A stretch of 64,000 nucleotides of DNA from Actinopolyspora biskrensis (GTDB taxonomy: Bacteria > Actinomycetota > Actinomycetes > Mycobacteriales > Pseudonocardiaceae), in contig NZ_JACBYW010000001.1 in the NCBI RefSeq assembly GCF_013408175.1, forward strand, positions 930,001 through 994,000, given 5' to 3'. This document shows, one piece after another, positions 1-61,110 of the stretch (positions within the stretch are counted from its first letter, which is position 1; each line of letters begins with the position of its first letter). Under the pieces are notes generated by a model. That model was not told where the DNA came from. It worked only from the letters and a program-made list of their open reading frames with translations, and searched no databases. A program made the position numbers and the translations under genes.

Positions 1-1
1 T

Positions 2-754
2 GCGCAGCTCTCGTCGGACATGCCGATCTGCGTGCTGCGCGGTACCGGTTACCTCGATGTCGGGGGAGAGGACCGGAAGCCCTACCTGGCCGAACTGGCG
101 GCGCTGCTCGGATATGTTTCGGACAGTAATGTCGTCGACGAGCGGAGCGGCACGTTCGTCGACGAAGTGCGTCCATCAGACCCCGGCAGCAAGGATGTCA
201 CCTTTCAACTGGGCGCGTGCGAGGCTCACGCCGACGAAAGCTCGAAGTTGGTCCCTGAAGATGTCGTCGGGCTCTGGTGCGCACGCCCTGCAGCCGAGGG
301 GGGGAGCAACTTGGTTTGGCTCACCGGAGACCTCGTCGAGAACATCGCGGCGCAGCCCAACGGCCCTGAACTGGTCGAAACCCTCCGACAGCCAGACTTC
401 ATGTTCGGGGGCAAGCTGCGGCAGCCCCCGAAGGTGGTTCGGGCCCCGATCTTCTTCGGCCAGGACGGCGTACGGTTTCGCCTCGGCTCCCTGCAGGACG
501 CGATCGAGGTCACCGAGCGGCCGCTGAGCGAGAAGCAGGAGGCCGCGCTAAAAGCGCTAATCTCAGCGACCCAGACCGCGACTCCCCTCGAGTACAACCT
601 CGACGCCGGCGAGGCGCTGGTGTGGATGAACCGCAAAGCCCTGCACTCTAGGACCGATTTCGACGACCGCAGTCGGCTCCTATACCGTACGCGCTGTTTC
701 AACGACGCCCTAAGCAACACGCGCGACGACCGGTCCGAGTGGTTGACGTTGTGA
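2..754 (+). CDS. TauD/clavaminate-synthase-like Fe(II)/2-oxoglutarate oxygenase, 5' partial
   Basis: The frame is open from base 2, so the true start may lie before the window; the first ATG inside is at 20 and gives 244 aa. Numbered from that Met, it has a facial-triad-like His70-Ala-Asp72, then a distal His209 in 'ALHSRTDF' followed by Arg223/Arg225, which is the layout of TauD/clavaminate-synthase enzymes (iron ligands H-x-D/E...H plus an Arg that binds 2-oxoglutarate). It is expected to hydroxylate or oxidise a small molecule in the cytoplasm. It is the first gene seen in a run on the same strand, 133 bases before the nucleoside phosphorylase start. The substrate cannot be told from sequence. 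The family call is reasonable but the N-terminus is missing. Confidence 0.7.
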   Translation, partial: AQLSSDMPICVLRGTGYLDVGGEDRKPYLAELAALLGYVSDSNVVDERSGTFVDEVRPSDPGSKDVTFQLGACEAHADESSKLVPEDVVGLWCARPAAEGGSNLVWLTGDLVENIAAQPNGPELVETLRQPDFMFGGKLRQPPKVVRAPIFFGQDGVRFRLGSLQDAIEVTERPLSEKQEAALKALISATQTATPLEYNLDAGEALVWMNRKALHSRTDFDDRSRLLYRTRCFNDALSNTRDDRSEWLTL

Positions 755-887
755 CGTGATCCGAATCAAGAGTAGCCGAACCTCACGTCATCGGTCCCGC
801 CGGAAACGCGGGACACGGTGCCCGGCAACCTCGGTATGCCGGGCACTCCCGCAAGCACGAATTCACTCTCGCGACGAAAAGGTGCCC

Positions 888-1688
888 ATGTCGACCACAC
901 CTATCGCCATCATCGGAGGTACCGGGTTCTACCGGTTCCTGGACGAGGGCGAGGACCACCACATTGATACCCCTTACGGCAGCCCAAGCGCTCCTATCCG
1001 TATCGGCGAGGTCGCCGGTCAGCGCGTGGCCTTCCTCCCTCGGCACGGCCGGAACCACGACTTCCTGCCATCAGAGGTTCCCTTCAAGGCCAACCTGTGG
1101 GCACTCCGGGAAGCCGGCGTGCGGCAGGTCATCGCTTTCAACTCCGTCGGGAGCCTTCAGTCAGAATACCGCAAAGGAGAGTTCGTTCTGGTCGACCAGT
1201 TTGTCGACCGCACCCACGGCCGAGACGCCAGTTACTTCACCGGGTCCGATATCGCCCACGTCAGTGCGGCGGAACCGTACTGTGAGCGGATGCGAAACCT
1301 TGCCGAAGAGGCGCTTCAGGACGCCGATATCCGCATCCACCGCACAGGCACCGTCGTCGTGATCCAAGGTCCCAGGTTCTCGACGACCGCGGAGAGCCGG
1401 TGGTTCAGCCAGCAGGGTTGGCACCTCGTCAACATGACCCAGTACCCCGAGGTGATTCTCGCCAGGGAACTGGAGATGTGCTACGCGAACCTCTCCTACA
1501 TCACCGATTACGACGTGGCCGCCAAGGAAGTGGTCGGAGATGCCGAGGAAGCGGTATCACACGCCGCTGTGATAAAGGCGTTCAGCTCCGACTCCGAACT
1601 CATTTATGGTGCCATCCAGCGTCTAGTCAAAGCATTGCCCGATGAGGACTGCCAGTGCCGAAGCGCTCTGGCAAACGCACGCGGATAA
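888..1688 (+). CDS. mtnP: 5'-methylthioadenosine/adenosine-type nucleoside phosphorylase
   Basis: A 266-aa PNP/MTAP-family phosphorylase, close to the usual family length. The N-terminus has the phosphate-binding 'IIGGTGFYRF' and 'LPRHGRNH' motifs, followed by 'FNSVGSL'. The base/ribose site reads 'NMTQYPEVILARE' and then 'ITDYD'; the two Asp residues of the TDYD segment are the adenine (6-amino) signature of MTAP, not of guanine/inosine PNP. The expected reaction is phosphorolysis of a 5'-modified adenosine to adenine and a 5-modified ribose-1-phosphate. The frame opens at 756, but the ATG at 888 is where family homology begins, so I chose it. No methylthioribose-1-phosphate isomerase follows, so this may be a pathway-specific enzyme (compare the fluorinase and chlorinase pathways) and not ordinary methionine salvage. 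Confidence 0.85.
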   Translation: MSTTPIAIIGGTGFYRFLDEGEDHHIDTPYGSPSAPIRIGEVAGQRVAFLPRHGRNHDFLPSEVPFKANLWALREAGVRQVIAFNSVGSLQSEYRKGEFVLVDQFVDRTHGRDASYFTGSDIAHVSAAEPYCERMRNLAEEALQDADIRIHRTGTVVVIQGPRFSTTAESRWFSQQGWHLVNMTQYPEVILARELEMCYANLSYITDYDVAAKEVVGDAEEAVSHAAVIKAFSSDSELIYGAIQRLVKALPDEDCQCRSALANARG

Positions 1689-1755
1689 GCAGCGTTTCGC
1701 ATGACCGACCAAGCACCCCCTACGACCGACGACCACACATACCCGGGCGGATAAC

Positions 1756-2475
1756 GTGAGCGAACACTCGGAACTGGCCAGCAAACTGATCCTGATCCGG
1801 CACGGCCAGACACCGTGCGTCGTGATCAATCGCTTCTGCGGCGATCATGAGGCCGAGCTGACCCCCGAGGGCCGACTAATGGCCGAGTACGTAAGGGGGA
1901 ACCCGGCGCTCGACGACGTCGAGCTGATGCTCAGCAGCCCGAAGAAGCGCGCCATCGACACGGCGGAGACGATCGCAAAACACCATAGTATGGGAGTGAC
2001 CGTCGACAACCGTTTGTCCGAAGTCTCCTTCGGGCTCTGGGAGAATCAGCTGCCCAGCGAACTGCCGGACAAGGGGCCCCACCGGGCGTGGGAGGCCAAT
2101 CCTGCGCTGTTCAGTCCGCCGGGAGGCGAAACCGGCCTGCAGGTGATGGCACGGGCAGTCGCTGCGGCTCGCGACGCTGCACAGCAGGCCAAATCGGTCG
2201 CGATCGTCTCACACAAAGCGCCCATACGTTTGATCGCAGCATTCTTCCTTGGAATCTCACCATCACGTTACCGGGATATCGCTAACGTTTCCTGCAGTTC
2301 CGTATCCACCCTCGAACTGCAAGGCAGTAGCGTAGCTCTCAAGCAACTGGGCGATGTCTCCCACTTACCTGCTGAATGGCAGACGGCTCCGGACCAGTAC
2401 CAGGGAGTCACGAAGAGCCAGGATAGGATGCGCCGATCCAGCACCGACAGCGATTCAAAGGAAGTAAGTGCGTGA
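1756..2475 (+). CDS. Histidine phosphatase superfamily (phosphoglycerate-mutase-like) phosphatase
   Basis: A 239-aa branch-1 histidine phosphatase. The catalytic signature is 'LIRHGQT' (R15-H16-G17), the probable acid is Glu89 in 'LSEVSFGLWE', and the second core His is H153 in 'VSHKAPIR'. Such enzymes dephosphorylate small phosphates or act as mutases. Here it could remove phosphate from a sugar phosphate made by the neighbouring phosphorylase or aldolase; this is inference from position. It starts with GTG, and its stop overlaps the GTG of the MFS gene by 4 bases (GTGA), which suggests translational coupling of phosphatase and exporter. The last 30 or so residues are polar and probably not part of the fold. 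Confidence 0.85.
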   Translation: MSEHSELASKLILIRHGQTPCVVINRFCGDHEAELTPEGRLMAEYVRGNPALDDVELMLSSPKKRAIDTAETIAKHHSMGVTVDNRLSEVSFGLWENQLPSELPDKGPHRAWEANPALFSPPGGETGLQVMARAVAAARDAAQQAKSVAIVSHKAPIRLIAAFFLGISPSRYRDIANVSCSSVSTLELQGSSVALKQLGDVSHLPAEWQTAPDQYQGVTKSQDRMRRSSTDSDSKEVSA

Positions 2476-3671
2476 AAACCACCGAACAATCGCTGGACAA
2501 TAGCAAGTCATCATCCCTGCGGGACGCGCTCCTTTTAGCAGCCGGTCTTATTCTGCTCCACATGCCGGCCGGCCTGCCCGCACCGCTCTATCCGCTGTAC
2601 CAGGATACGATGGGGATTGGGCCCGGTATAGTGAGCATGCTGTTTGCTAGCTACATCGCGGGCACCATCATCGGGCTTGTACTGATGCCCACTGCAGTAC
2701 GGAGTCGATACGGACTCATTTGGGCGTGCCTTTTGTCGATCATCGGTGACTTTTTATTCATCTTGGCGACCGGCGCGCTTGGACTTTTCGTGGCGCATAT
2801 TCTGCAGGGAATTGTGTTAGGGATCTTCACTGGAGCAGTTCCCGCGGCGCTGGCGAAACTCGACTTGGCACAACTCGGAAAAGCAGTCGGACGAATCACA
2901 ACCTCCGCTAACGCGATCGGGCTTGCGGTGTCACCGCTGTGGAGTGGTCTGCTCCTGCAGTTTGCTCCCTGGCCCGGCGAGCTGGTGTGGGTTATCCAGA
3001 TCGTTGCAACGTTGATCGTCGCTCCCTTCTTGCGCCTGCCCAGTCACGTGAACACACCTACTGATTCAGTCTCCGTGCGCGGGATCCTCGCCACGATCAG
3101 ACGCGGTCGGTCAATGCCCGCAAGCTTCATAGTTGGATTTTGTGCATTCTCCTCGGGTGCACTGCTTAGCGCACTCGGGGCGCTAGTACTGCGTGATGCA
3201 GTGCACACCAACAACGGTGCTCTCGAAGGATTCGTCGTAAGCATCTGCTTTATCCTATCGGCAATCATCGGCGCCGTGAAGTGGAGGAGCAACGATCTCG
3301 GAATGGTCCGGATCGGACTCCTGTGGGTCGCGCTGGGATGCTTCGGCCTGGCTATTGGGGCCTACGTCGGAATCTTGCTATTGATAATCCTGTCTGCGAT
3401 CGCCTGCGGGGTGGGTCAGGGGATCGGGCTTCAAGGCGCCACCGAGGTCGTCGCGTTGGAGTTCGACGAAAACTCCCGGAACAAGGCGATCTCGATATTC
3501 TTCATCTCCTGCTACGTCGGCACCGCCCTGGCGGCGCTCGGCGTGGGCTCCCTCATCAATGCAACCGGACTGCCTATGGGTTTCGGAGGATTTGCGTTTT
3601 TGCTCGCCCTGCTGGGGACGGTGGGTATCGCACTCTCACGGACGCAAAAGCCGTATTTGATTACCCGTTAG
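2472..3671 (+). CDS. MFS transporter, probable exporter
   Basis: A 399-aa major facilitator with about 12 hydrophobic segments, starting inside the stop codon of the phosphatase gene. The first loop reads 'LPAPLYPLYQ', very like the 'LPSPLYPGYQ' of a second MFS protein at 30315-31613, so both belong to one actinobacterial MFS subfamily. Its position between biosynthetic-looking enzymes suggests export of the product made by this gene set. The substrate is unknown. GC content and codon use are lower than in the genes between 10 and 50 kb, as for its neighbours here. Confidence 0.85.
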   Translation: MKTTEQSLDNSKSSSLRDALLLAAGLILLHMPAGLPAPLYPLYQDTMGIGPGIVSMLFASYIAGTIIGLVLMPTAVRSRYGLIWACLLSIIGDFLFILATGALGLFVAHILQGIVLGIFTGAVPAALAKLDLAQLGKAVGRITTSANAIGLAVSPLWSGLLLQFAPWPGELVWVIQIVATLIVAPFLRLPSHVNTPTDSVSVRGILATIRRGRSMPASFIVGFCAFSSGALLSALGALVLRDAVHTNNGALEGFVVSICFILSAIIGAVKWRSNDLGMVRIGLLWVALGCFGLAIGAYVGILLLIILSAIACGVGQGIGLQGATEVVALEFDENSRNKAISIFFISCYVGTALAALGVGSLINATGLPMGFGGFAFLLALLGTVGIALSRTQKPYLITR

Positions 3672-3737
3672 GAGGTGGTGTTCAATCGAAAGCAAGTAAA
3701 CAGCACGAGTGAACACTCTAGGAAATCGGGAGAATCG

Positions 3738-4763
3738 ATGACATCCACGACATTGGTGGAACGTATAGAACGGCTTTCGAATAACGGAACGGGCCTCCTC
3801 GCCGCCGACGAAAGCAACCCGACGGCCAGCAAGCGAATGGCCGAGTTCGGTGTGGAATCGACAACAGAGTCAAGACGCCGGTATCGCGAACTATTGATCT
3901 CTACTCCTGGTCTCTCGCAATGGGTGAGTGGCGTCATACTCTATGATGAAACCGTCCGGCAGGCCGATTCGGACGGCACACCATTGTGCCGATTGGCCGT
4001 TAAGAACGGTCTCGTTCCGGGGGTCAAGGTAGATCGTGGAACACGCGTCATGGGGGACCGTCCACGAGAATTCCTCACTGAAGGAATCGACGCTTTAGGG
4101 CAACGTTTGGTCGAGTACCGTGATCTCGGCGCTGAGTTCACAAAATGGCGTGCCGTGTTCCAGGTCGACGCCGAGCGACCGACCCCTGAGGCGATCAAGG
4201 CCAACGCGCATGCGCTCGGCAAGTATGCTGCCATTGTGCAAGAGCATGAAATGGTTCCGATCGTTGAACCCGAAGTCCTCATGGAGGGTAACCATTCTTT
4301 GGCGCATGCCGAAGAGGTAACCTCCTCGGTGCTGGAAGCGGTGTTCCAGGAGCTCACGGATCAACGGGTGGCGCTTGACGGAATCCTATTGAAGCCGAAT
4401 ATGATTGTCCCAGGAAAACAGCATACTCCCCAGGCAAGCATCAGTGAAGTAGCGGAGGCGACGGTACGAACCCTGTTACGCACGGTTCCTGCCGCGGTAC
4501 CAGGAATTGGATTCCTATCGGGCGGACAGGATGATCAGACTGCCACGGCCCATCTCAACGAGATCAACCGACACGGTCCGTTCCCATGGAACGTGACCTT
4601 CTCATTCGCTCGGGCACTGACTGGCGCGGCGCTAAAGGCATGGTCTGGCAAGGACGCGAACCGCGCGTCTGGCCAAGCGGCACTGGCTCACCGAGCGCGA
4701 CTCAATGCTATTGCGTCGCAAGGAAGGTACAGCCCCAAGCTAGAGAAGGAAGACTTGTCCTGA
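3738..4763 (+). CDS. Class I fructose-1,6-bisphosphate aldolase (eukaryote type)
   Basis: A 341-aa Schiff-base aldolase. Landmarks of the animal/plant-type class I enzyme are all present: 'GLLAADES', 'TKWRAVF' (Lys136), 'GILLKPNM' with Schiff-base Lys219, 'GIGFLSGGQ' and 'WNVTFSFARAL'. It should cleave or form ketose-1-phosphates with DHAP as one partner. The ATG at 3738 has GGGAG 6 bases upstream and was preferred to an upstream GTG at 3675. Class I FBA of this type is uncommon as a housekeeping aldolase in actinomycetes, which mostly use class II, and it sits next to a DXP synthase. It may therefore supply glyceraldehyde-3-phosphate to that enzyme, or act on another ketose phosphate; both are inference. 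Confidence 0.9.
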   Translation: MTSTTLVERIERLSNNGTGLLAADESNPTASKRMAEFGVESTTESRRRYRELLISTPGLSQWVSGVILYDETVRQADSDGTPLCRLAVKNGLVPGVKVDRGTRVMGDRPREFLTEGIDALGQRLVEYRDLGAEFTKWRAVFQVDAERPTPEAIKANAHALGKYAAIVQEHEMVPIVEPEVLMEGNHSLAHAEEVTSSVLEAVFQELTDQRVALDGILLKPNMIVPGKQHTPQASISEVAEATVRTLLRTVPAAVPGIGFLSGGQDDQTATAHLNEINRHGPFPWNVTFSFARALTGAALKAWSGKDANRASGQAALAHRARLNAIASQGRYSPKLEKEDLS

Positions 4764-4829
4764 CAATTCCAGTATTGCTACCTCTTGTATCCCACAGATA
4801 CGCGAATATCGGAATCGAGGAGGCGAACC

Positions 4830-6698
4830 ATGGAAATCATTGACCCAGCCATCGGACCGGATTACCTCCGCAAGCTTTCCGAGGACGAGCTCACTAGCGT
4901 ATGCCAGGAAATCCGTGATCATCTGGTCTCGAGCGTGACATCAACCGGCGGCCACCTAGGATCCAACTTAGGAGTCGTTGAGCTGACCGTCGCTTTGCAT
5001 CGGGTGTTCGATTCGCCGATTGACAAGGTCGTGTGGGACATAGGTCATCAATCCTATGTGCACAAGATGGTGACGGGTCGAGCGAATGAGCTCCCTACTC
5101 TCCGCAAACTCGACGGGCTGTCGGGGTATCCGAGCCAGCGTGAATCTGTTCATGACATCGTCGAAAATTCCCACGCCTCGACATCCCTGGCATACGCGGG
5201 TGGGCTCGCCAGGGCATTCGAACGACGTGGTGAGACCGAGCGCTCGGTGGTCGCGGTGATCGGTGATGGCGCGCTGACCGGAGGTATGTCCTGGGAAGCT
5301 CTGAACAATATCGCCCTGCTGCGCAACCACAGGGTGGTCATCGTCGTCAATGACAACGGACGCTCCTATGCGCCGACCGTGGGCGGCATCGCTAGCCACC
5401 TCGCCGCCCTCCAGAAGAGCGCATTCTACGACGGAACCGGTACGGAGGATCCAATTGTAACGCGGTATAAGGAACGAGTTGGTCCCGAGTCGGTAAATTC
5501 TGAGGAAAGTACCGACGAACTCACGTACTCTCGATCAATATTTGAGAGCCTCGGATTCGCTTACGTCGGTCCATTGGATGGCCATCACGTCCCCTCTCTT
5601 GAGGAATATCTCCGCCGTGCCAAGGATTACGGAGATCCGGTAGTGGTGCATTGCATCACCCGCAAGGGAAATGGGTACGGGCCCGCTGAAAACGAGCCGA
5701 TCGACCGATTGCATACGGTGAAGCCGTCACCCTCTTCGAATGCGAAGTCGCCGGCCAAGAAAAAATCGTGGACCAGCGTGTTCTCAGAGGAAATCAGTGT
5801 ACTTGCGGATACCCATTCCCACATCGTAGCGGTGACCGCAGCGATGTCCGACGCGGTGGGGCTGGGCAGACTTTTTGAAGTGCATCCAGACCGTGTTATG
5901 GATACCGGAATCGCTGAGCAATACGCTGTCACATCGGCGGCAGGGATGGCGCTTGGTGGGCTGCATCCGGTTGTTTCGATATATTCGACGTTCCTCAACC
6001 GCGCGTTCGATCAGATCGTTCTGGACGTCGCTTTGCACGGGTGTGGTGTGACGTTCGTACTCGATCGAGCGGGCGCCACAGGGGAAGACGGCCCTAGCCA
6101 CAATGGCATGTGGGACCTCTCGCTGTTGCAGGTGGTTCCAAGTCTTCACATCGCGGCTCCTCGGGATGCGCCGTCACTTGTTGAACAGTTGCGGGAAGCG
6201 GTGCGGGTCGATGACGCTCCGACAGCAATACGATTTCCGAAAGGCGAGGTCACGGAAGACCTTCCCGCGTCACGCAGGATCGATGGTATCGATGTGCTCC
6301 ATGAAGGTACCGACCCCGAGATCCTCCTGGTTGGTATCGGGGCGATGGCGCCTTCATGTGTTGCAGCAGCTAAGATGGTGGAAGAGTACGGAATCGATGC
6401 CGCAGTGGTGGATCCGCGCTGGATCAAGCCTGTTCCCGATGCACTGGTGCACTTCGCACGCCGATTCCGGTATGTTGTGTCTGTGGAAGACAGTGGCCGC
6501 GTCGGCGGATTCGGTAGTGCTATCTCACAGCGGTTGACCGACGCCAACGTGATGGCACGCGTCCACAGTCTTGGATTGCCTCAGGATTTTCCGGAACACT
6601 GCTCGCGATCGGAGTTGCTAAATAGTAGCTGTCTTACTCCTCACGGTATCGCATCGTCGATCCAAGGTATTCTCGAGTCAGACTCCGCGCACAATTGA
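4830..6698 (+). CDS. dxs: 1-deoxy-D-xylulose-5-phosphate synthase-like thiamin enzyme
   Basis: A 622-aa DXS family protein. It has His42 in 'TGGHLGSNLG', the ThDP/Mg motif 'GDGALTGGMSWEALNN' (145-160), 'PLDGHHV', the catalytic Glu363 in 'DTGIAEQ', and 'DRAGATGEDGPSHNG' with the conserved His. All core residues are therefore present and the enzyme is probably active, joining pyruvate and glyceraldehyde-3-phosphate to DXP and CO2. The ATG at 4830 has a strong GAGGAGG 7 bases upstream and was chosen over 4785. Differences from housekeeping DXS include 'NDNGRSYAPTVGG' where 'NDN-MSISPNVG' is usual. It is the last gene of the left-hand set and could be a pathway-dedicated or resistance/precursor copy. 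Confidence 0.88.
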   Translation: MEIIDPAIGPDYLRKLSEDELTSVCQEIRDHLVSSVTSTGGHLGSNLGVVELTVALHRVFDSPIDKVVWDIGHQSYVHKMVTGRANELPTLRKLDGLSGYPSQRESVHDIVENSHASTSLAYAGGLARAFERRGETERSVVAVIGDGALTGGMSWEALNNIALLRNHRVVIVVNDNGRSYAPTVGGIASHLAALQKSAFYDGTGTEDPIVTRYKERVGPESVNSEESTDELTYSRSIFESLGFAYVGPLDGHHVPSLEEYLRRAKDYGDPVVVHCITRKGNGYGPAENEPIDRLHTVKPSPSSNAKSPAKKKSWTSVFSEEISVLADTHSHIVAVTAAMSDAVGLGRLFEVHPDRVMDTGIAEQYAVTSAAGMALGGLHPVVSIYSTFLNRAFDQIVLDVALHGCGVTFVLDRAGATGEDGPSHNGMWDLSLLQVVPSLHIAAPRDAPSLVEQLREAVRVDDAPTAIRFPKGEVTEDLPASRRIDGIDVLHEGTDPEILLVGIGAMAPSCVAAAKMVEEYGIDAAVVDPRWIKPVPDALVHFARRFRYVVSVEDSGRVGGFGSAISQRLTDANVMARVHSLGLPQDFPEHCSRSELLNSSCLTPHGIASSIQGILESDSAHN

Positions 6699-6721
6699 TC
6701 GCGGTAAGTAACATGAGTAGA

Positions 6722-7072
6722 CTAACCGTTCGCGCTTCCCCTGTCCGCCCAATGGCACCGTGACCGTTTGGAAGCGGCGAATACGCCGCTGATCTCAGCC
6801 GTGATTTCACGTGGTTTAACCACCGTTCGAAACGGAAGCGAGAACGCGAGGCTTCGCGGGGTGTCCCGGAGCTCACGCAAGACACGGTTCGGTTTCGACC
6901 GTATTCGGGACGCGAGATCAACTAGATAGTTATTGACGACTCTCTGGCGCATGACCGCACCGCAACGATGGCATTTGACGTAAAGTAGGATCCTGCCCGC
7001 GTAAGCCAACGTGTGTAAAGTATCGTTGAAACAGGCAACACACTGCAACTCGACTGTTACAGAACTGCGCAA
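6722..7072 (-). CDS. Small zinc-ribbon-like protein of unknown function
   Basis: A 116-aa reading if the TTG at 7072 is used; it has GGAGGG 6 bases upstream, whereas no ATG or GTG lies close. The N-terminal part has two Cys pairs, 'CVACFNDTL' and 'KCHRCGAVM', spaced as in a small zinc ribbon, followed by a basic, mostly helical segment ('RSKPNRVLRELRDTPRSLAF') and a conserved-looking 'RTVVKPREIT' stretch. The pattern looks like a real conserved actinobacterial small protein and not a shadow, but I cannot name it. It faces the DXS gene tail to tail, 23 bases apart. Confidence 0.5.
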   Translation of the reverse strand: MRSSVTVELQCVACFNDTLHTLAYAGRILLYVKCHRCGAVMRQRVVNNYLVDLASRIRSKPNRVLRELRDTPRSLAFSLPFRTVVKPREITAEISGVFAASKRSRCHWADRGSANG

Positions 7073-7516
7073 GACAACCCTCCATGCTGACTCTAGGACC
7101 CTGGTTACCACATCACAATACACGAAAAGTATCCGGTTGTGTAAGGCTACTGTAGACCGTCGTCCGATCAGCTGAGTGAGCCAGGGAAGGGATCGATTCA
7201 GATCCTCGTTTTGGTTTTCTGTCGCGCACAGCTGGCCCGGGACGAGGCGGATCCAAGCGAGTTTCGACATGTATCGGTGTTTCTCCGTGCCGAGAACACA
7301 GTGGATTTGCCCCAATCGGACGATTACTCTCGAGTGGTACCGCGAATACGATGAACGGCGGTGACTGGACACCGCGTACACCGAATGTCATTACGCGCTG
7401 TCCGCGGTTTTCTGTGTATAATTGGTTGCGCTTCACAAGTTGCGATGCGATAGTAGTAATAGGGTACTGGGATTGGTAACGGACATTGCGTGGCCTCGCT
7501 TCTGTCTGGCCCTTGC
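7073..7516. other. Intergenic, no gene seen
   Basis: This stretch separates the zinc-ribbon gene from the IS630 element. Frames here are short or are read-throughs of neighbours. It has lower GC than the flanks downstream and presumably holds the promoter for the zinc-ribbon gene. I see no RNA gene or repeat in it. Confidence 0.4.
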
Positions 7517-7519
7517 CTA

Positions 7520-7535
7520 GTGTGCTGAGTCGTTA
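7520..7535. repeat. IS630 left terminal inverted repeat
   Basis: GTGTGCTGAGTCGTTA, preceded by the TA target dinucleotide. Confidence 0.8.
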
Positions 7536-7583
7536 GTTCGGTGTTTGTTTGTGTGATGGGACGTTGAGGGGCGTGTCTGCGGG

Positions 7584-8595
7584 GTGTCTCTCGTCGATGC
7601 CGAGCGTCGGATGGTGGGAGGCTGGGCGTGTCGGGGTTCCATGGCACAGGCGATGGCACTGCGGGCGCGGATTGTGTTGGCGTGCGTCGATGGTGTGTCC
7701 AATATGGATGTGTCGTGGCAGCTATGGGCCTCGCGGCCGACGGTGACCAAGTGGCGACGCCGTTTCCTCGAAGATGGTCTGGGGGCCTGTCCGATGAACC
7801 GTGGCCGGGTGCTCCTCGTGCGATCACCGATGAGCATGTCGAGCAGCTGATCATCAAGACGCTGGTGGAGGCGTCACCGCGCGACGACACGTACTGGTCG
7901 ACTCGGTCGATGGCCGAGGTGATGGGTATGTCGCAAACCGCGATCTCGTGCATGTGGCGGGCCTTCGGACTCAAACCACACGTGGTGGATACGTGGAAAT
8001 TGAGCACCGACCCGCAATTCATCGACAAGGTCGGCGACGTCGTCGGGCTCTATATGGATCCGTCCGAGAATGTGCTGGTGCTGTGCGTGGACGAGAAGAG
8101 CTAGATGCAGGCCCTGGATCGCCCCGGCAGGCCCATGACTACGTCCGCCACGGTACGACCAGCCTGTTCGCCGCCCTGGATGTAGCCGGCGGCGGAGTCA
8201 TTACCGCCCACCAGCGACGGCATCGGCACCAGGAATTCTTGAAGTTCCTGACAACGATCGACACAAATACTCCTGTCGAGCTGGACCTGGACCTGGTCTG
8301 CGATAGCTACGCCACCCACACAACGCCGGCCATCACAAAGTGGCTCCTGCAGCACCCGCGTTTCCACGTGCCTTTCACGCCGACCAGCGTCTCCTGGCTC
8401 AACCTCGTCGAACGCTGGTTTGGTGAACTCACCACGCGCAAACTCCGCCGGTCTGCCCACCGTAGCGTCACCGAACTCGAAGCCGACGTCGCAGCATGGA
8501 TCCAGCAATGCAACACCGACTCCAAACCCTTCGTGTGGACCAAGACCGCCGACAGACATCCTCGGCACCCTCGCCGCAAACTGCCAACGCATTAA
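7584..8595 (+). pseudogene. IS630-family transposase, frameshifted and interrupted
   Basis: Transposase homology runs through three frames. Frame 1 (from 7584) holds the N-terminal helix-turn-helix region ('DVSWQLWASRPTVTKWRRRF'). Near 7785 it shifts to the frame carrying '[14 protein letters not shown]' and '[18 protein letters not shown]', up to 'VLCVDEKS', the first catalytic Asp. There a TAG at 8102-8104 stands where CAG (Gln) is usual, and a further shift leads to '[18 protein letters not shown]', 'LVCDSYATH' (second Asp) and '[13 protein letters not shown]' (catalytic Glu). All DDE residues are still readable but not in one frame, so the gene is dead. Confidence 0.9.
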
Positions 8596-8608
8596 CAACT
8601 CAACACAC
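8593..8608. repeat. IS630 right terminal inverted repeat
   Basis: Reverse complement reads GTGTGTTGAGTTGTTA, two mismatches from the left repeat; followed by TA at 8609-8610. Confidence 0.8.
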
Positions 8609-8611
8609 TAG

Positions 8612-8858
8612 CTCCTTCGCCCGATCCGGTTCCTGGAATACTCGAGCCCTCGTGCTGGCCGTGGTCGATGTGGGCCTGCTTGACCCAGTTGCCCAGGGGC
8701 GAGCCGTAGAAACCCAGCTGCCGGTCAGCTTCGGCCGCCGAATTCTCTCCGACCAGTACCAGCTCCACTGCCTCGCGGTTCAAGTCCACCTCGGCAGGAC
8801 CGGGCCTGTAAGAGCTCACCACCCCCGAGTCCGACTCGATCGGATCCGTTTCTGCCAC
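8612..8858 (-). pseudogene. IS3-family transposase OrfA fragment
   Basis: Read on the minus strand from a GTG at 8858, the translation has the OrfA helix-turn-helix pattern 'NREAVELV...SAAEADRQLG...PLGNWVKQAHIDHGQ', matching the usual 'RREAVELV..SG.SVAEVARELG...TLGNWVKQ..IDRG' of IS3 OrfA proteins. It stops making sense at the IS630 boundary and no OrfB is seen, so it is a remnant, probably interrupted by the IS630 insertion. Confidence 0.6.
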
Positions 8859-8931
8859 AAGTTGCGGCCGCGTGCGAGGCGTGGCTCACTGGGAATGGAG
8901 ACGGCATGTCCTATGCGGAGGCACGGTGCGG

Positions 8932-9999
8932 ATGAGGACACTCACGTTTCATCCCGAACGGCTCGGCCCGGCATCCCGGCAGGTACTGCTCGAGCGCGTC
9001 GCCGACGTCCATCAGCGGGTCTTCGACGACTCCTCCAGCCGAGCCCCCTTCGCAGAGTTTCTCTATCCACCGGGCGCCCGGACCACGGTCAAGGTGCAGA
9101 TCGACGCCGCCGGACACACGGTCGGCTTCATCGCCCTGCACCACTACCGGCTGTCCCACCGCCGCAGGAAGATCGACGTCTTCCGAGTGCAAGCGGGCAA
9201 GGTGTCTCAGGCGCGAGGCAACGCGGAGACAGCACGGACCATGCTCACGCACTGGCTGGGGTATCTGGTCAAGCATCCCCTGCGACGGGCCTACTACTTC
9301 TCCGCACTCGTGGACCCGTCCAGCTACCGTGGGGTCTGCGCCTACGCCCCACGCATGTGGCCCAAACCCTGGGAAGAGCTCCCGTCGGACGTGCGTGAGC
9401 TCATGGACACCCTGTTGACGGCCTTCCACTTCGATCCCGAGGTCACGCAGCGCCACCCTTATCCGCTCGTGCACGTCGGCTGGCGCACCCGCGACCCCGG
9501 AAGCGGAAGAACGGACGAATCGATCCGTCACGATGACCCCACCACGTTCTTCCACCACGTCAACCCCGGTTACCGGGCCGGAACGGGGCTGGCGACCATC
9601 GTCGCGATCAGCAAACGGGACGCGGCCATCGCAGTAGCTCGCTTCACACGCCGCGCCCTGCACCGCACCTGTGCCACTCCCCCTGGAACCGGCTTCCGAT
9701 CCTCGTGCTCACGCTCGCTCCTCGGACCAGTCCGGCACGTCCAGCAGCCGCGAGGCCGCCAAGAAACGCCTCACCGACGCCGAAACGCGACTCCGCCGGT
9801 TCCAGGAGGCCATCGAAGCGGGCGTGGACCCCGCAGCATTGGCCGAGACGATCAACGAAGCCCAAGCCGAACGAGCAGCGGCCACCGCCGAACTCGACGC
9901 CACCCCCACGAGCAGCGCTCTGAGCGAGGCCGAGATTCACGCACGGATCGACTCACTCGGAGACATCGGCCCGGCACTGGCCAACACCAGCCCGGATAA
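8932..9999 (+). CDS. Hypothetical protein, C-terminus probably disrupted
   Basis: Unrecognised protein. The first 245 or so residues (to about 9670) have balanced composition and coherent secondary-structure-like blocks ('TVGFIALHHYRLSHRRRKIDVFRVQ', shown only in part as VGFIALHHYR; 'TMLTHWLGYLVKHPLRRAYY'). The remaining 110 residues are Arg/Pro/His-rich low-complexity sequence, typical of a wrong frame in GC-rich DNA. Over that stretch a different frame encodes the tail of a serine recombinase, so the real C-terminus was probably lost at a rearrangement near 9670-9740. Start: GGAGG at 8917-8921 serves either the GTG at 8926 or the ATG at 8932. Function unknown; a GNAT-like fold is possible but unproven. 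Confidence 0.45.
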   Translation: MRTLTFHPERLGPASRQVLLERVADVHQRVFDDSSSRAPFAEFLYPPGARTTVKVQIDAAGHTVGFIALHHYRLSHRRRKIDVFRVQAGKVSQARGNAETARTMLTHWLGYLVKHPLRRAYYFSALVDPSSYRGVCAYAPRMWPKPWEELPSDVRELMDTLLTAFHFDPEVTQRHPYPLVHVGWRTRDPGSGRTDESIRHDDPTTFFHHVNPGYRAGTGLATIVAISKRDAAIAVARFTRRALHRTCATPPGTGFRSSCSRSLLGPVRHVQQPRGRQETPHRRRNATPPVPGGHRSGRGPRSIGRDDQRSPSRTSSGHRRTRRHPHEQRSERGRDSRTDRLTRRHRPGTGQHQPG

Positions 10000-10198
10000 A
10001 CTCGCGAACCCGTACACAGCCGTTTCCCCGAAGATTCGCCACCAACCCGACGACCACGCGACCGACGTCACCATCGAGCCCGTGGGCCAGGTGAACAGTA
10101 AGGATGTCGGAGGGGACTTGACCCCTGACACGTGGGTGGCATCCCCATTCCGGGGATTGGTCACCATGCCCAGCACTGTCATCCAGCCCCGCGCGTAA
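9741..10198 (+). pseudogene. Large serine recombinase, C-terminal remnant
   Basis: Only the C-terminal coiled-coil and tail region of a large serine recombinase/resolvase is left. Recognisable blocks are 'AAKKRLTDAETRLRRFQEAI', 'GVDPAALAETINEAQAERAA', 'SLGDIGPALANTSPDKLANP' and 'VTIEPVGQVNSK'. The N-terminal catalytic domain (with the Ser nucleophile) is absent, and the frame differs from that of the preceding hypothetical gene. This marks a former integrative element whose left part has been deleted. Confidence 0.75.
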
Positions 10199-10851
10199 GC
10201 GAACGGGGGCATCCTTATCCGGATGCGAGTGGGTGATCCTCCCCCGTCAAGAACGCGCGCAGCAAGCTTCGCCGATCCGTGCCGTTCTCGGCGCTGCGAT
10301 CGATCGCGTTGCGGATGAAGGCCCTGTTGAAACCCGTTACCACTCCTGTCGCCGATCAACAACCGAACCGGGCACCCCACCCCCATGCCGCGGATCCAGA
10401 AGTGTCCGGTATCGCCACTCGCAGTGAAAGACGTCGTGACCGGCCACGCACGTCGAAGTCCCCGATCGTGCGAAAACAGCTCTTCGACCGAGGACGCGCG
10501 CGTGTCGCACCGATCGCCACGCGAACCCCCGCAATCAGGGCATGATTCGCTGGCCGACGAACAGGGGTGGGTGATCCTCCCCGAGGCAGCCGAATGGCGA
10601 CAGCGCGACGATGCACGTCCTGCAGCGGTACGAACGGTGGCGAACCGTCGTCCGCGCGCGGGGAGACGGCATTCGTGCTGACGTCCCAGGTGCTCAACAG
10701 CACTGAGTGGACTCCTGGTCCGGCTGGAGCAGCGCCAGCGGGAGCTCGTCGGGGTTCCGGCCGAGGAGTGGTGCTTCGACTGAGCACCGCCCGACCACCT
10801 GTCCGGAGCCGGACCGTCGGCGGGTGAGGCTGGACTCGGTGCCCGTGCAGC
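10199..10851. other. Intergenic, degraded sequence
   Basis: No convincing gene. The 16-base word GTGGGTGATCCTCCCC occurs twice, at 10229-10244 and 10567-10582, as direct repeats 338 bases apart. Long frames across this stretch (one of them spanning 10356-12728 on the minus strand) are Arg/Pro/Ala-rich shadows. It is probably decayed mobile-element flank. Confidence 0.4.
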
Positions 10852-10891
10852 GAGGGCGGGGCGGCGCTCGGTGGCGCTGCCCCGCCCTCGC
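10852..10891 (-). terminator. GC-rich hairpin after the Old Yellow Enzyme gene
   Basis: A 12-bp perfect stem CGAGGGCGGGGC / GCCCCGCCCTCG, extended by an inner GCGC/GCGC after one mismatch. It starts 13 bases past the OYE stop codon on the minus strand. There is no clear U-tract. Confidence 0.65.
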
Positions 10892-10903
10892 CGGACCGGA
10901 GGG

Positions 10904-12025
10904 TCAGTACAGCGTGGTGAGTGCCTCGCGGGTGAACGGGACGAGCTCGGTCTCGCGGCCGTCCAGCACCTTCCGGCTCCACTCCGGGTCGGCCAGCAGG
11001 GCGCGACCGACGGCGACGAGGTCGAACTCGTCGCGCTCCAGTCGTTCGGCCAGCCCTTCGACGCTGGCCACGTCGGTTCCCGCGCCCTCGCCGAGGGTGG
11101 CCGGGTCGAACACCGCGTCCAGCCCGACCGAGCCCACGGTGATGACCGGCTTGCCGGTGAGCTTGCGGGTCCAGCCGCCGATGTTCAGGTCCGGGTCGGA
11201 CTCGGGGAACTCGGGCTCCCAGTAGCGACGTCCGGAGGCGTGGAAGGCGTCGACCCCGGCCTCGCTGAGCGGGGTGAGTATCGCCTGCAACTCGTCCGGG
11301 GTCTCGGCGAGCTTGGCTCCGTAGTGGTCGGCCTTCCACTGCGAGAAGCGCAGGACCACGGGGAAACCGGGCGATACCCGCTCGCGCACGGCGGCGACGA
11401 TGTCGGCGGCGAACTTGGTGCGCTCGACCGGGGAACCGCCGTAGGCGTCGGTGCGCCTGTTGGTGCGCTCCCACAGGAACTGGTCGATCAGGTAGCCGTG
11501 CGCGCCGTGGAGCTCCACACCGTCGAATCCGGTGCGCTCGGCCTGCTGCGCGGCGTCGGCGAAGGCCTCGACGAGGCGTTCGACGTCGGCCAGGGCGAGT
11601 TCCTCGCCCGCCTGCGGGGTGCCGTCCAGAGCGCGGCCGGAGGGTCCGACCGAGGGTGCCTCGGGGTAGGGCGGTTTGCCGGCCTGGCGCTGGATGCCGA
11701 CGTGCCACAGCTGCGGCATGATCTTGCCGCCTGCCTCGTGCACGGCGGAGACGACGTCGCTCCAGCCTGCCAGCGCGTCCTGTCCGTGGAAGCGCGGCAC
11801 GTTGGCGCGGTCCCCGGCGGAGGGAGCGTCGACGTAGGTGCCCTCGGTGATGATCAGGCCGGTTCCGGCGGCGGCGCGCCGGGCGTAGTAGGCGACGACG
11901 TTCTCGTCGGGAACGCCTCCGGGGGACTGGTCGCGGGTCATCGGAGCCATGACCAGCCGGTTCGGTAGCTCCACCGAGCCGAGGGCGAGCGGGCGGGCGA
12001 GTGCCTGGGCGGCGCGAGCGGACAT
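10904..12025 (-). CDS. Old Yellow Enzyme family NAD(P)H:flavin oxidoreductase
   Basis: A 373-aa FMN (beta/alpha)8-barrel ene-reductase of the alkene reductase/NemA type. Landmarks are 'LPNRLVMAPMTR' at the N-terminus, 'GTGLIITEGTYV', 'HVGIQRQ', the substrate-binding 'ELHGAHGYLIDQFLWERTNRRTD' (part), 'FDAFHASGRRYWEPEF' region and the phosphate-binding 'DLVAVGRALLADPEW'. It reduces activated C=C bonds of enals, enones, maleimides or nitro compounds. The ATG at 12025 has AGGAGG 6 bases upstream. It is divergent from an Rrf2 regulator, a pairing that suggests induction by electrophiles or redox stress. Confidence 0.9.
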   Translation of the reverse strand: MSARAAQALARPLALGSVELPNRLVMAPMTRDQSPGGVPDENVVAYYARRAAAGTGLIITEGTYVDAPSAGDRANVPRFHGQDALAGWSDVVSAVHEAGGKIMPQLWHVGIQRQAGKPPYPEAPSVGPSGRALDGTPQAGEELALADVERLVEAFADAAQQAERTGFDGVELHGAHGYLIDQFLWERTNRRTDAYGGSPVERTKFAADIVAAVRERVSPGFPVVLRFSQWKADHYGAKLAETPDELQAILTPLSEAGVDAFHASGRRYWEPEFPESDPDLNIGGWTRKLTGKPVITVGSVGLDAVFDPATLGEGAGTDVASVEGLAERLERDEFDLVAVGRALLADPEWSRKVLDGRETELVPFTREALTTLY

Positions 12026-54769: not shown

Positions 54770-55078
54770 GTTGCGAGTGGGCGCTCTCTGTTGGTAAGAG
54801 CGTTGGCTTGACTGTGTATGCGCCCGGCATCGCGCGTATGAGGAAAGCGGGCGTAGGATCTCCCGGTTGGCCCGGTAGTCCTACGTCCGCGCACTCTGTT
54901 GTTCACTCGAGAAAGCGGGCGTGTGCGGGGTCGGTGCTGCACGCTCGCACGATTCCCCGAATCATTGCCAGAATCGAGCTTGCACGGGTGTTCGGATGAG
55001 GATTTTTCCGGCGGGTACCGTTGCTGCGCTGTCGGCCTCACGGTTGTCGAAATTATTCGTTTCCAAGGGTGCTGGTGG
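54770..55078. other. Intergenic, hairpin only
   Basis: No gene seen between convergent units. CGCTCT (54782-54787) and AGAGCG (54797-54802) form a small hairpin after the DsbA-like gene that could end transcription. Confidence 0.4.
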
Positions 55079-56485
55079 TCAGTCACAGCAAATTACTGCG
55101 TAGGACAAATCACGCCGATTGGATATGTTTCGTTTCTTGAAAACCTTGGAAAGGTGTTGCTCGACCGCTCCGACGGTGATGTACATTTGGTCGGCGATTT
55201 CATTGTTGCTCATACCGGTTTTTGCGAGCCGGGCGACTCGCTTCTCTTGTGGCGTCAACTTGGCGGAGGTGCTCGCGTGGTTCGGGCCGTTCAGTGCCTG
55301 ATCGGCCCGTGAGCTCCAGAACGAGTTCCCACATTGGTGCGCGACCCTTTTGGAAGTCGCCAGCATGTCGCTCGCCTCCTCGGCGAGTTGAATCTCAGAA
55401 AGATGGGTTCCGAAGTCGAAGTATAATTTGGCGCAGTAACGCCAGATCTGACTGTGTGTTAATAGAGATGTAGCTTCCCGAAGCTGGTGTACAGTTCGTT
55501 CGTCTCCTTGGGAAAGGGCAACTGAATGCAAAGCCATCGCCTGTATCCAGGGAGTTCCCCATTTTCGTGCGGCCCGTAGTTCTTCGTTGGAAAGAGCGAT
55601 CGCCAGGTCTTTCTGGTCAAGCGTGGTAGCGCACAGTGCTGCTTTTGACCGCCAATTGGTGACAGCCGGATTGAACACTCCGAGTCTGGTAAGTTCCCGG
55701 CCGCATGCGAGAAAATCTTCGAGAGCCCGTTCGAAACGTCCGACGCTCAACTCGACAGAACCGCGAGCGGACAAGAAGGCAGGGCGGTTTTCGATGTTTG
55801 CTATCGGCCCGGGAAAGGTGTGTACGTGGAGAAGCTCTTTTGCCTCTTCGGACTCGGCCAGCTCGGCCAATATTTCCAGGTGCCAAGCAACAGAAATTTC
55901 GGATAGTCGCGGATGTAACTTCTTGGAGTTTACTTCGGACAGAATTTTGCGTGCTTCCTGGAGGTTCCCTTTGAACGCTGTCAACCTGGCCTGCAGAACT
56001 GCGAGGGAGTCGCGAATATCGTCTACGTCGGACCAGCGAGCGGATTTTTTTGCCTTGATTACCTCGTGTTCGGCGAACTCTACTTCCTCGGCGTAGATCA
56101 AGAGCGTGATGGCATACCAGAATAATACTGGATCGCTGTCTTTCGAGTTGTTCAGGGATTCCATCGCGAGCATGGTTGCGGACTGGCGGTCGATGCCGCG
56201 GTTCGCCAGCAGGAGTGCTTTGCATAATCGGCGTCGAGAGTGCTGTACGTGCTCTCCTTTTTCGGTGTTATGAATTTGGTTTCCCCACGGCGGTTCGCCG
56301 GAAGTGTAAACCAGACTGCACAGGTCTTCTATCTTGGTGAACAATGAGCTGTTTGGCGGCTGATTCAGAAAATTTATCGTCGTGTCGAATGCTTCTGCCC
56401 AGCGGCCGCTGAGCGCCAGTTGATTGGTCTCGGCTTTCACTGATTTAATGTAGTCTTTTTGCTGTTCGTCTATATGGGCACTCAC
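55079..56485 (-). CDS. LuxR-type regulator with TPR-like helical domain
   Basis: A 468-aa protein with a C-terminal LuxR helix-turn-helix ('KLTPQEKRVARLAKTGMSNN', 'VGAVEQHLSKVFKKRNISNR'). The preceding 390 residues are helical repeats like the back half of LAL/MalT regulators ('ALEDFLACGRELTRLGVFNP'), but there is no Walker A nucleotide-binding domain. It has low GC and many Lys/Asn codons compared with the 10-50 kb region. Such proteins are frequent pathway activators; it may control the polyketide genes to the right. Confidence 0.85.
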   Translation of the reverse strand: MSAHIDEQQKDYIKSVKAETNQLALSGRWAEAFDTTINFLNQPPNSSLFTKIEDLCSLVYTSGEPPWGNQIHNTEKGEHVQHSRRRLCKALLLANRGIDRQSATMLAMESLNNSKDSDPVLFWYAITLLIYAEEVEFAEHEVIKAKKSARWSDVDDIRDSLAVLQARLTAFKGNLQEARKILSEVNSKKLHPRLSEISVAWHLEILAELAESEEAKELLHVHTFPGPIANIENRPAFLSARGSVELSVGRFERALEDFLACGRELTRLGVFNPAVTNWRSKAALCATTLDQKDLAIALSNEELRAARKWGTPWIQAMALHSVALSQGDERTVHQLREATSLLTHSQIWRYCAKLYFDFGTHLSEIQLAEEASDMLATSKRVAHQCGNSFWSSRADQALNGPNHASTSAKLTPQEKRVARLAKTGMSNNEIADQMYITVGAVEQHLSKVFKKRNISNRRDLSYAVICCD

Positions 56486-58969
56486 GAGAATATCCTGCCA
56501 AACTTTGTCGAATTGGAATTTTATTTTCGTGATATTGTTCTTTTCGGGCCTTGTTTGATTGATATTTTAAGATTTCTGATGTCTGTGATTCGTGTCGTGT
56601 TTCAAGTTTTTCTGTCAAATGTTGAACGGCACTCCGGGGATGCTACTTGGAAGCACGTTGTCAGAAGTCACAGGAATCTGAGTTCGCCACGATGGGGAGT
56701 GGTTCGCGTGAGGTGTTGCTGAAGTGGTGAGGAAGGTTCATGACACCGGTCGGTGTGACCTTGATCATCCACCTCGAGAAGCGCTGTGCTCGGACTGTGG
56801 TTGTGGTGGTGGTCGGGAGCACCGGTATGGGTCCAGTAGGACTGGGGACATCAATCGTGAACTCACCGTTCGCGGAACACGATTTTCTCGTTGATGTCCT
56901 GGATAGATCCTTCGTGGAGTTATCGGGCTCCGACTGCTTTGATCGACTTGTCGCACAGTTGACATTTGGAGTCAGACTCTCTTTGTCGCTGCGTACGCGT
57001 CGATAGCGTTGTTCCCCAGTGTCATCGTATCCCCAGTGTGCCGTGCTGCCACGATTCGTTGGGGTCTGCATGGTTATGCTAGACTCCGACGAATCGGAGT
57101 CTAGATTGTTGTGGGGTCTTCTGCAACTCTTTTTGTTGTTTTTAACAGAGGCGACCGGGTGCGCGCTCTTGGTGTCGGACATTTGGCCCTGTCCGTGCCG
57201 GCGATTGGATCAGTAACCGGCCCCGCGGAGTATTCGTGTAGTTGGCGACCCCCGGCACGACCGGAGTGGGAGTCACGTCGGCAGGGGACCGGTGACCGCA
57301 TGGTGTACGGGGCTGAACGGCCTCCCGGGGTTCGAGTGTCCGCCGCGATCGTCCACGCATCACCGTCGTGCTCGCCGATCAACTCGTGTTGTCCAATGAG
57401 CGTGTCCGCATCGCGCGCTCGACTTGACCGGAGAGGGATGCGTTAGACACGGATAGCGGTACGCCACAGCTGGGAGCGACTGTGCCCCAGGTCCGCCGAA
57501 GTGATCCGCGACGTCGGACAGGTGTCAACTCAACCTGGCTCCCCGGCCGCCCGAGAGAGAACAGGACATGCCGAATAGCAGGTCAGCTGTGGAAGTGGTG
57601 ACGTTACCTCACCCGGGCTCCCGGAGACATACACTCGCTCGCCACTCGTTTCCAGGTTTTCCGGGGACTGTGCGCCCTGATCCCATCAAGTTACCGTCCC
57701 TCCCGCGCGAACGTGCCACAAAACAGGGGGATCGCTCGAATCAGGGCATCATGCGACGCAGCACCCGTTCCTGCTCGCCTCGAGGCGAGGTCTTTCGCGG
57801 TACCATCCACCACGTCGCATGAAGCTGACCCTGCGCGGTTCGGCGGGGATGGGGCGGAGACGGTCTCGGTACACCGGTTTGCTCACCAGTGATTCCTTCG
57901 ATCCCTCGTCGCGTACGTACCAGCGACACGTCCTTTGCGGACTCGGCACAGGTCCACCGCATTACCGGCACATTTTTCGGGGTGGTTCGGAAAGATCCCC
58001 GACCTCCCAGCGGAGTGGCCTGTTCGCCTGTCCAATTGCCGCCCCACGTCGGTAAACGTCATCGCGGGAAGCGGGGGAGCCCTCGCATCACGACCGCCCA
58101 GTCGCCTTGCGATGAGTCCGAACTCACGCGCGAGGGTCAACTCGGGGCGCGTCGGCCGGGCTTTGATTCACAGCATCACCGCGAAAGGATCTTGAGCCGT
58201 GCCCTAATAACCGGTGGCTGGGAGTGTGATGACCATCGATGATGGATTGAGCCGTCTCATCGATTTGGTATCGGACGAGCTGGCGGGCATTGGCGATTCA
58301 GGGTGTTCACGAGTGATTCCGAACGGGGGGAGTCAGTTGGGAAACGGCACTCACACGGTCGGCTCGACCATCGAGGAGGGACCGGGTTCATGTCCATCTG
58401 ATCACCGGGAAGCCGACTTCCGCTGCGAACTTCCCAGTGTCCAATACCCACGACAACCGCGTGTTGATCCGGCTGATGCCGGTTGAGCCGCCCCTCGCGG
58501 TCGTCGAGGTCAGCGGTGATCTCACGCGACCAAGTCGCATGCTGACGCGAACAGCGGGATCAGGTAACCACTCCGACCACCGTGACATCATCACAGTCTC
58601 CAGGACCGACGTCTCGGGCACCGAGCACATTCGGACGGCACCGTCGGTCAGTCGAACACGTGCTCCGCCGCTCGGTTATCGCACTCCGGGGAGTGCGATA
58701 CGAAGGCCGCGGCAACACCTTCAGCCGCCGTGAGAACTCACCGCACGCGACACAGCGCCAGCGCGGATCGGTCGTCGCTCATCGTCGCCGGCCGCGTTCT
58801 TTCCGGAAGCCTTCTTTAAGAGAAGGGTGTTTGAATGATTTTCGGATGAGGTGTCGCTTGTGAGGGGATCCCGGGTGGGGCTGGTGAATGGCTCCCCTCA
58901 GGGGGCGTGGTGGATTGGGTGGGAGTCCAGGAGGGGAGAGTGGTTCACCTGATCTTTTTCTGCCGCGGT
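56486..58969. other. About 2.5 kb without a convincing gene
   Basis: Many short frames exist on both strands, none with a start, ribosome-binding site and composition that persuade me. Two weak hints only: a minus-strand stretch near 57750-57950 reading 'WYVRDEGSKESLVSKPVYRD', and a plus-strand stretch near 58437 ('PPLAVVEVSGDLT') that faintly recalls a STAS domain. The region is probably degraded DNA between the LuxR gene and the polyketide genes. The hairpin CCTTCT-TTAAG-AGAAGG lies at about 58808-58824. Confidence 0.4.
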
Positions 58970-59479: not shown

Positions 59480-59674
59480 CTGATTTCCCTTCTGGATTTG
59501 TTTTCCGGAGTTTTACCGTACGTGTTCTACTTGTTTATGACTATGGCAGCGATGTGCTGTGGTCGCAATGATGTGCTGTGGGAACTGGGGGAGTACCGAA
59601 GGGTCAGGTGACCATTCGTGCCCTAGAGTCGCTCAGCGGGAACTGCAACAGGATACTTTGGTCGAGGAGGACGC

Positions 59675-60460: not shown

Positions 60461-60632
60461 GCCGCATTTTCTTCGTGGGTGACGCCGCTCATATTGCTGC
60501 TAGCTGGATCTGGGGTGGCTCCACAGTGAGGACGTCGGCTGCGGCTCGCTAATATTGGATTTGTTCGTGACAGGGATGAACTCGTCGGGTGGGGTTCGCG
60601 CCCCTGGCACCTGCTGTGGAAGCGAGGTATAT

Positions 60633-61073: not shown

Positions 61074-61110
61074 TCCTTGAACAAGGAAATGGCCTCGAGA
61101 GGAATCCATC

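Follow-up and report, generated by a model that had tools for sequence, protein, structure and literature searches.

At the left end of a 64,000-nucleotide stretch of the Actinopolyspora biskrensis genome (contig NZ_JACBYW010000001.1, positions 930,001 to 994,000; hereafter, the window) lies an island of eight genes bounded by insertion sequences (IS). One of these genes, annotated as the methionine-salvage phosphorylase MTAP, encodes a protein that groups with the phosphorylases of aristeromycin-type gene clusters, aristeromycin being a nucleoside antibiotic. We describe the island, compare it with these clusters and weigh the possibility that its genes make an adenine-nucleoside natural product.

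Gene content and borders of the island

Six of the eight genes form an operon-like run on the + strand and two, encoding a mutase and an HD hydrolase, are divergent and lie to the left, in flanking sequence that we refer to as L009 (window position = L009 position − 15000). The features are:

2–754, + strand: OXY, a TauD/clavaminate-synthase-type 2-oxoglutarate (2OG) oxygenase, cut by the window edge (PF02668, E 3e-13)
888–1688, + strand: purine nucleoside phosphorylase (PNP), annotated MTAP, of the aristeromycin-cluster clade
1756–2475, + strand: HPP, histidine phosphatase (PF00300)
2472–3671, + strand: MFS exporter (PF07690)
3738–4763, + strand: ALD, class I fructose-bisphosphate-type aldolase, ATG at 3738, second genomic copy
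4830–6698, + strand: DXS, an enzyme of the 1-deoxy-D-xylulose 5-phosphate (DXP) synthase family, strongly diverged second copy
L009 12486–14174, − strand: PGM/PMM mutase, divergent from OXY
L009 11401–12405, − strand: HD hydrolase, left of the mutase gene and likewise divergent
7517–8611, + strand: right IS630-type copy (DDE_3)
L009 10303–11397 (window −4697 to −3603): left IS630-type copy, identical to the right one
1–7516: in-window portion of the foreign IS-to-IS segment, the left portion being L009 11398–15000 with the mutase and HD genes

The first-pass annotation of this DNA had described six same-strand genes with one GTGA overlap and low GC content, and this description stands: the six open reading frames (ORFs) on the + strand have no internal stops, HPP and MFS overlap in GTGA at 2472–2475, the other intergenic gaps measure 133, 67, 66 and 66 bp, and GC content by gene is 57–64% (OXY counted from 20) as against 69% for window 10905–54000. 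The families it had assigned were recovered with Pfam and NCBIfam. The extent of the set needed revision, since OXY begins outside the window, at L009 14846 (window −154) with an AGGAGG upstream, and the mutase/HD pair, about 670 bp from OXY, adds two genes on the left; no known cluster is completed when the sequence is extended in this direction.

The segment between the two IS copies spans 11,119 bp and has a GC content of 59.3%, versus 69–70% for the DNA beyond both copies. The IS630-type copies are 1,095 bp long, identical and in the same orientation and, as in a composite transposon, the pair flanks a stretch that is missing from relatives of the same genus. Flanking host DNA matches the nine other genomes of the genus at up to 92–93%, whereas within the segment the matches listed for these genomes comprise only the PGM gene (64–67%) and the aldolase and DXS genes (66–73%), and the OXY protein was not found in any of the nine. 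The 11.1-kb segment is foreign. Its ORFs are all intact, with no IS copy between the six + strand genes.

The phosphorylase module and aristeromycin-type loci

The phosphorylase is the sole MTAP-type gene found in its own genome. Among 296 genomes of the class (own included), the closest other phosphorylase is that of Nonomuraea deserti, at 55% (54.5%) identity, the remaining genomes giving no more than 51% along most of the protein, or 53–54% along shorter pieces; in a wider sample of the family of N. deserti (297 genomes), a match at E 1e-79 was again seen only in that species. A contig scan with a 44-residue clade-specific phosphorylase alignment returned 213 confirmed relatives, of which the best 80 loci were kept. 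Seven matches are near full length, those from Saccharopolyspora elongata (70.8%), Longimycelium tulufanense (68.9%), Streptomyces sp. NBRC 110611 (68.7%), Kutzneria buriramensis (68.5%), Actinokineospora sp. NBRC 105648 (67.9%), Micromonospora haikouensis DSM 45626 (66.9%) and an uncultured Rhodobacteraceae bacterium (56.2%).

A tree built from 64 of the 109 distinct phosphorylase rows places the window row within an eight-row aristeromycin-type clade (support 94/93), separated by a 100/99 branch from the ordinary actinomycete MTAPs. Two further rows, one from Nonomuraea and one a second copy from Saccharopolyspora, extend this to a set of ten supported at 100/99; they sit on long branches and their exact placement is unsure. 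These groupings show that the window enzyme is a member of the clade formed by the phosphorylases of aristeromycin-type clusters. In the alignment, an Asn occupies the column that we take to be Thr93 of human MTAP in 13 of the 109 rows (all ten rows of the clade plus three outside it). A His replaces Val233 of human MTAP in the 5' pocket of the phosphorylase, as it does in all ten clade rows; because 18 of the 99 other rows carry the same residue, it is only a hint, and we have dropped it as proof of adenosine specificity.

Two enzymes of aristeromycin biosynthesis, MacI and MacT, are reported in PMC8694150 to have been characterised as adenosine phosphorylases, and PMC8599513 gives Ari9 as the adenosine phosphorylase of the pathway. 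The first-pass annotation had proposed an enzyme of the 5'-methylthioadenosine (MTA) type acting on a 5'-modified adenosine. This proposal is not supported, given the nesting of the phosphorylase in a clade whose pathway enzymes are described as adenosine phosphorylases, and salvage of MTA or 5'-deoxyadenosine was set aside as the core logic because of the same placement. The accompanying remark that no methionine-salvage genes follow holds for the DNA seen, other salvage genes not having been searched for genome-wide.

The seven aristeromycin-type loci (L066–L072; 20 kb each, except one of 16.7 kb) include those of Streptomyces sp. NBRC 110611 (L066), M. haikouensis DSM 45626 (L068), the uncultured Rhodobacteraceae bacterium (L070) and S. 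elongata (L072). According to PMC8706298, genome mining revealed in M. haikouensis DSM 45626 a cluster of this antibiotic group, on the basis of which pathways to aristeromycin and coformycin were put forward. The genes of its locus fit this, with MIPS-like, three SAHH-like, SAICAR-synthetase-like and SDR genes among them. When locus proteins were used as tblastn queries, Gfo/Idh, MIPS, DJ-1, SDR, RidA, PfkB, PGM, HPP and the phosphorylase were detected in all seven loci and SAHH-like genes in six (not L069).

Of the 80 fetched loci, seven contain a match to the island HPP (E 1e-6); they are precisely the seven of aristeromycin type, and in each the match adjoins the phosphorylase. Identity is 50.7–57.1% in six of them and 38.0% in the Rhodobacteraceae locus, while the best 12 of 67 plasmid records reach 34%. 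A match to the exporter follows HPP in L067 (47.2%) and L070 (42.3%); in plasmids, the best 12 of the 16 records reach 28%. This gap in identity, together with the gene neighbourhood, strongly indicates that the island HPP and MFS derive from aristeromycin-type clusters.

The island and the seven loci have in common a phosphorylase (56–71%), an adjoining HPP (38–57%) and an MFS exporter (42–47%, two loci). Each locus also holds a mutase of the PGM family, that of the island being of another subfamily. They differ in that the loci contain MIPS, Gfo/Idh, DJ-1, SDR, RidA and PfkB (all seven) and SAHH-like genes (six of seven) with no match in the island, whereas OXY, ALD, DXS and the particular HD gene of the island are without match in the seven loci. 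The island resembles the back end of aristeromycin-type clusters without being one of them: searches of it recovered neither a MIPS-type cyclase, the enzyme that forms the cyclopentane, nor the remaining front-end genes. The sole MIPS match in the whole genome (42%) is on another contig and is probably housekeeping; a carbocyclic product made by the known route was set aside because the search of the genome yielded no cluster-type MIPS.

Two observations concern the loci themselves. Divergent second phosphorylase copies (48%) lie near the clusters of S. elongata (L072 1241–1990) and Streptomyces sp. NBRC 110611 (L066 19852–20127), which would fit a pathway with two phosphorylases. The Rhodobacteraceae locus (L070 3167–15327) places a cluster of the aristeromycin type in a proteobacterium; alongside MIPS and the phosphorylase it has HPP, MFS, two SAHH-like genes and an ORF that looks HD-like by eye.

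The remaining island genes, other loci and the flanks

In OXY, residues H128, D130, H267 and R277, corresponding to the HxD...H iron ligands and the 2OG-binding Arg, are invariant in 17 aligned rows, and the family profile is closest to hydroxylases (asparagine oxygenase, clavaminate synthase, TmpA). Weak matches were obtained in 2 of 393 other actinomycete genomes (34–36%) and, in another family, in 16 of 297 genomes (25–36%), one genome being common to both samples; in a contig scan limited to two short patterns, none of the 36 pattern matches was confirmed as a relative. The nearest relative (41.5%) is encoded on a plasmid of Paraburkholderia sp. PREW-6R (L016), where its gene is followed by a HAD phosphatase-like gene; phosphorylase, HPP, MFS, ALD and DXS were not matched in the 28.8 kb of that locus. 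At L016 11165–18018 the OXY relative stands beside a fused epimerase-aminotransferase, the HAD phosphatase-like protein and a protein resembling cyclophane-type radical SAM maturases, a group of genes that carries no annotation in the plasmid collection.

ALD scores 448.7 bits against NF033379 (cut-off 250), is 56.3% identical to the host copy and retains the Schiff-base lysine motif LLKPNM, while SYGRAL of its solved relatives is changed to SFARAL; at E 1e-112 or better, the 296 genomes contain none but the island's own. DXS scores 568.9 bits against TIGR00204 (cut-off 465.95) and is 51.6% identical to the host copy, and its catalytic motifs are kept in an alignment with solved DXS. The best other match among the 296 genomes is 57%, and neither DXS nor ALD has an outlier relative that could serve as a cluster tracer. 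In the eight genomes with a clade phosphorylase, complete DXS matches reach 40–54% and fragments up to 63%, none of them inside the 20-kb loci. Of 262 columns that are invariant in 12 other DXS, 48 are altered in the island protein, as against 0–19 when each of the 12 is compared with the other 11, the host copy differing most. The main motifs are retained; because EQH has become EQY and residues ~224–244 are remodelled, it is possible that the island DXS uses a different acceptor.

The island mutase shares 51% identity with a mutase of the host that is encoded after a PNP gene (PNP by eye). This is why we regard the island enzyme as putatively phosphopentomutase-like and paired with a nucleoside phosphorylase; its distant matches include a solved phosphopentomutase. 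The best matches of the HD protein are weak and comprise HD proteins and SAMHD1, with two weak, partial matches in plasmids.

The complete combination of island genes was not seen in any other genome among the samples and pattern scans searched, and no description of it was found in the open paper library searched, in line with the first-pass annotation, to which no such pathway was known. Its view of an unrecognised set does not hold for the whole, the phosphorylase and HPP (with MFS) forming a module of aristeromycin-type clusters. The conditions it had named for its own refutation give a divided result: the left neighbours make up no known cluster, the phosphorylase and HPP are found together in seven other genomes, and OXY, ALD and DXS were not found beside them.

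The locus of N. deserti (L064/L088) is like the island in having a clade phosphorylase (54.5%) and no MIPS match, and unlike it in its neighbours, which by eye are an ABC transporter, a glycosyltransferase, an aminotransferase, an epimerase and a PHP-type protein; HPP, OXY, ALD and DXS were not matched there. At L064 4222–13838, the neighbours of the clade phosphorylase look by eye like PHP-type, epimerase, Gfo/Idh-like, DegT-like and glycosyltransferase-like genes, and this part is perhaps a further undescribed nucleoside or aminosugar cluster without MIPS. Two other adenine-nucleoside clusters, compared by description only, resemble the island in having an adenine-supplying enzyme: the MTAP-like phosphorylase NucPNP in the nucleocidin cluster, according to PMC8694150, and the phosphoribohydrolase AgmA in the angustmycin cluster (AgmA-F), for which PMC8599513 also gives a phosphatase and MFS genes. 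As described in these papers, both pathways differ from the island in coupling by a phosphoribosyltransferase-type enzyme (NucV/AgmE), none of which was seen in the island.

Several features lie outside the segment. Adjoining the right IS, at window 9724–10126, is a fragment that by eye resembles a serine-recombinase C-terminus and is repeated elsewhere in the same genome (93% identity to the copy at 556237 of its own contig 1) and also present in one other genome; the island locus may be an integration hotspot. Beyond the left IS, L009 2772–8194 holds a gene set of the host genus with KAS III, SDR and acyl-CoA-oxidase-type genes (Pfam) and two ORFs that are AfsA-like by eye, part of which is 85–92% identical in three same-genus genomes; the SDR of this flank is unrelated to the cluster SDR. 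A second low-GC stretch (56–62%) occupies window 55000–64000, with ORFs that by eye encode a LuxR-type regulator, an SDR, a biotin-carboxylase/carrier protein and an FAD monooxygenase, and is perhaps the beginning of a polyketide-type cluster that continues beyond the window. Rfam gave nothing at gathering score in the window and L009.

Proposed pathway and its alternatives

Taken jointly, horizontal acquisition of the segment and its role as a gene cluster for a putative adenine-nucleoside natural product form the interpretation that we favour with moderate confidence. Speaking for it are the phosphorylase tree, the HPP and MFS neighbourhoods, the likeness of the mutase to the partner of a PNP, an HD protein of SAMHD1-like sort and the intact genes of a foreign segment. 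To this extent the first-pass annotation is supported, which had suggested a nucleoside-derived small molecule and an exporter belonging to the set. The sugar part is best read as arising by a non-MIPS route, and the product may be an undescribed adenine nucleoside, which we suspect because ALD, the DXS-like enzyme and OXY replace the aristeromycin sugar-building genes beside a shared phosphorylase, phosphatase and exporter. In such a pathway, the mutase would shift the phosphate of a sugar or pseudo-sugar from position 5 to position 1 or back; the phosphorylase would join adenine to a sugar 1-phosphate, or free adenine from adenosine for such use; HPP, the HD enzyme or both would remove phosphate; OXY would hydroxylate or oxidise the sugar or nucleoside; and MFS would export the product. 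With less assurance, ALD and the diverged DXS could be assigned to building or feeding an unusual sugar, taking the place that MIPS, PfkB and SAHH have at the front of the aristeromycin pathway. A specific version, in which the two would build the sugar from C3 units and pyruvate as a 1-deoxy-ketose or C-methyl-branched sugar phosphate that the mutase and phosphorylase attach to adenine and OXY finishes, is tentative and, in our estimate, doubtful.

Several observations weigh against an adenine-nucleoside cluster. The front-end genes of all seven related loci are not matched in the island, cluster Gfo/Idh, MIPS, DJ-1, SDR, RidA, PfkB and SAHH-like proteins giving no match at E 1e-8 in window 1–12000 or L009, and OXY, ALD and DXS are without known nucleoside-cluster relatives in the loci and genomes searched. 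The island mutase is of another subfamily than the cluster mutase and only 26% identical to it. The NCBIfam MTAP models score the phosphorylase just over their cut-offs (TIGR01694, 277.6 bits, cut-off 274.85; PRK07823, 308.4, cut-off 306), so that the curated MTAP level is reached. The shared origin of HPP and MFS is argued from identity rather than from trees, and the HD gene is perhaps clipped by the left IS, as its end is only 4 bp away.

The same genes could be read as a salvage route to a deoxy-ketose, in which the HD enzyme, phosphorylase and mutase would turn (deoxy)adenosine nucleotides into a pentose 5-phosphate, ALD would yield glyceraldehyde 3-phosphate and DXS would make DXP, and HPP would dephosphorylate it for export of 1-deoxy-xylulose or a relative. 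Such a product, a deoxy-ketose and no nucleoside, would come close to what the first-pass annotation had in mind. Every enzyme class is present in the one segment, the main motifs of DXS and ALD are intact and the mutase resembles a PNP partner. However, the phosphorylase clade, HPP and MFS indicate nucleoside-making clusters, a nucleoside route to glyceraldehyde 3-phosphate would be odd when central metabolism already provides it, and OXY is left unexplained; we regard this scheme as unlikely. We give still less credence to ALD and DXS being spare housekeeping targets in a cluster that makes an inhibitor of one or both, with the nucleoside module producing the inhibitor or part of it. Each is indeed a second copy of a host enzyme, and DXS is altered at many conserved positions with its catalytic motifs kept, as a resistant copy may be, but two simultaneous targets would be unusual and too few genes remain for building an unusual sugar. 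It also counts against this idea that we know of no nucleoside inhibitor of class I aldolase or DXS.

Identical IS copies at both ends, the repeated recombinase-like fragment nearby (window 9724–10126, family by eye) and the lack of a second instance of the gene combination in the collections searched would also suit a patchwork of unrelated cargo assembled by IS or recombination, with any joint pathway limited to the phosphorylase–HPP–MFS module. Against this stand the intact ORFs and the compact arrangement of the six genes, which overlap or lie 66–133 bp apart on one strand with no IS between them, and such an assembly appears very improbable to us.

Should the island encode an adenine-nucleoside pathway, it would represent a compact path to a new adenine nucleoside, and the aristeromycin phosphorylase-phosphatase-exporter module would be portable and able to take another sugar-building front end. 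If ALD and DXS do build the sugar, adenine nucleosides with a non-ribose sugar could be reached in a way other than MIPS-type cyclisation or the transfer of a phosphoribosyl pyrophosphate (PRPP) analogue, and a DXS-family enzyme that takes part in making nucleosides would give the family a new role. The island would also be a caution that annotation as a methionine-salvage MTAP can hide a phosphorylase of nucleoside-antibiotic synthesis, and for genome mining the FN[TS]VGSLQ motif offers a handle.

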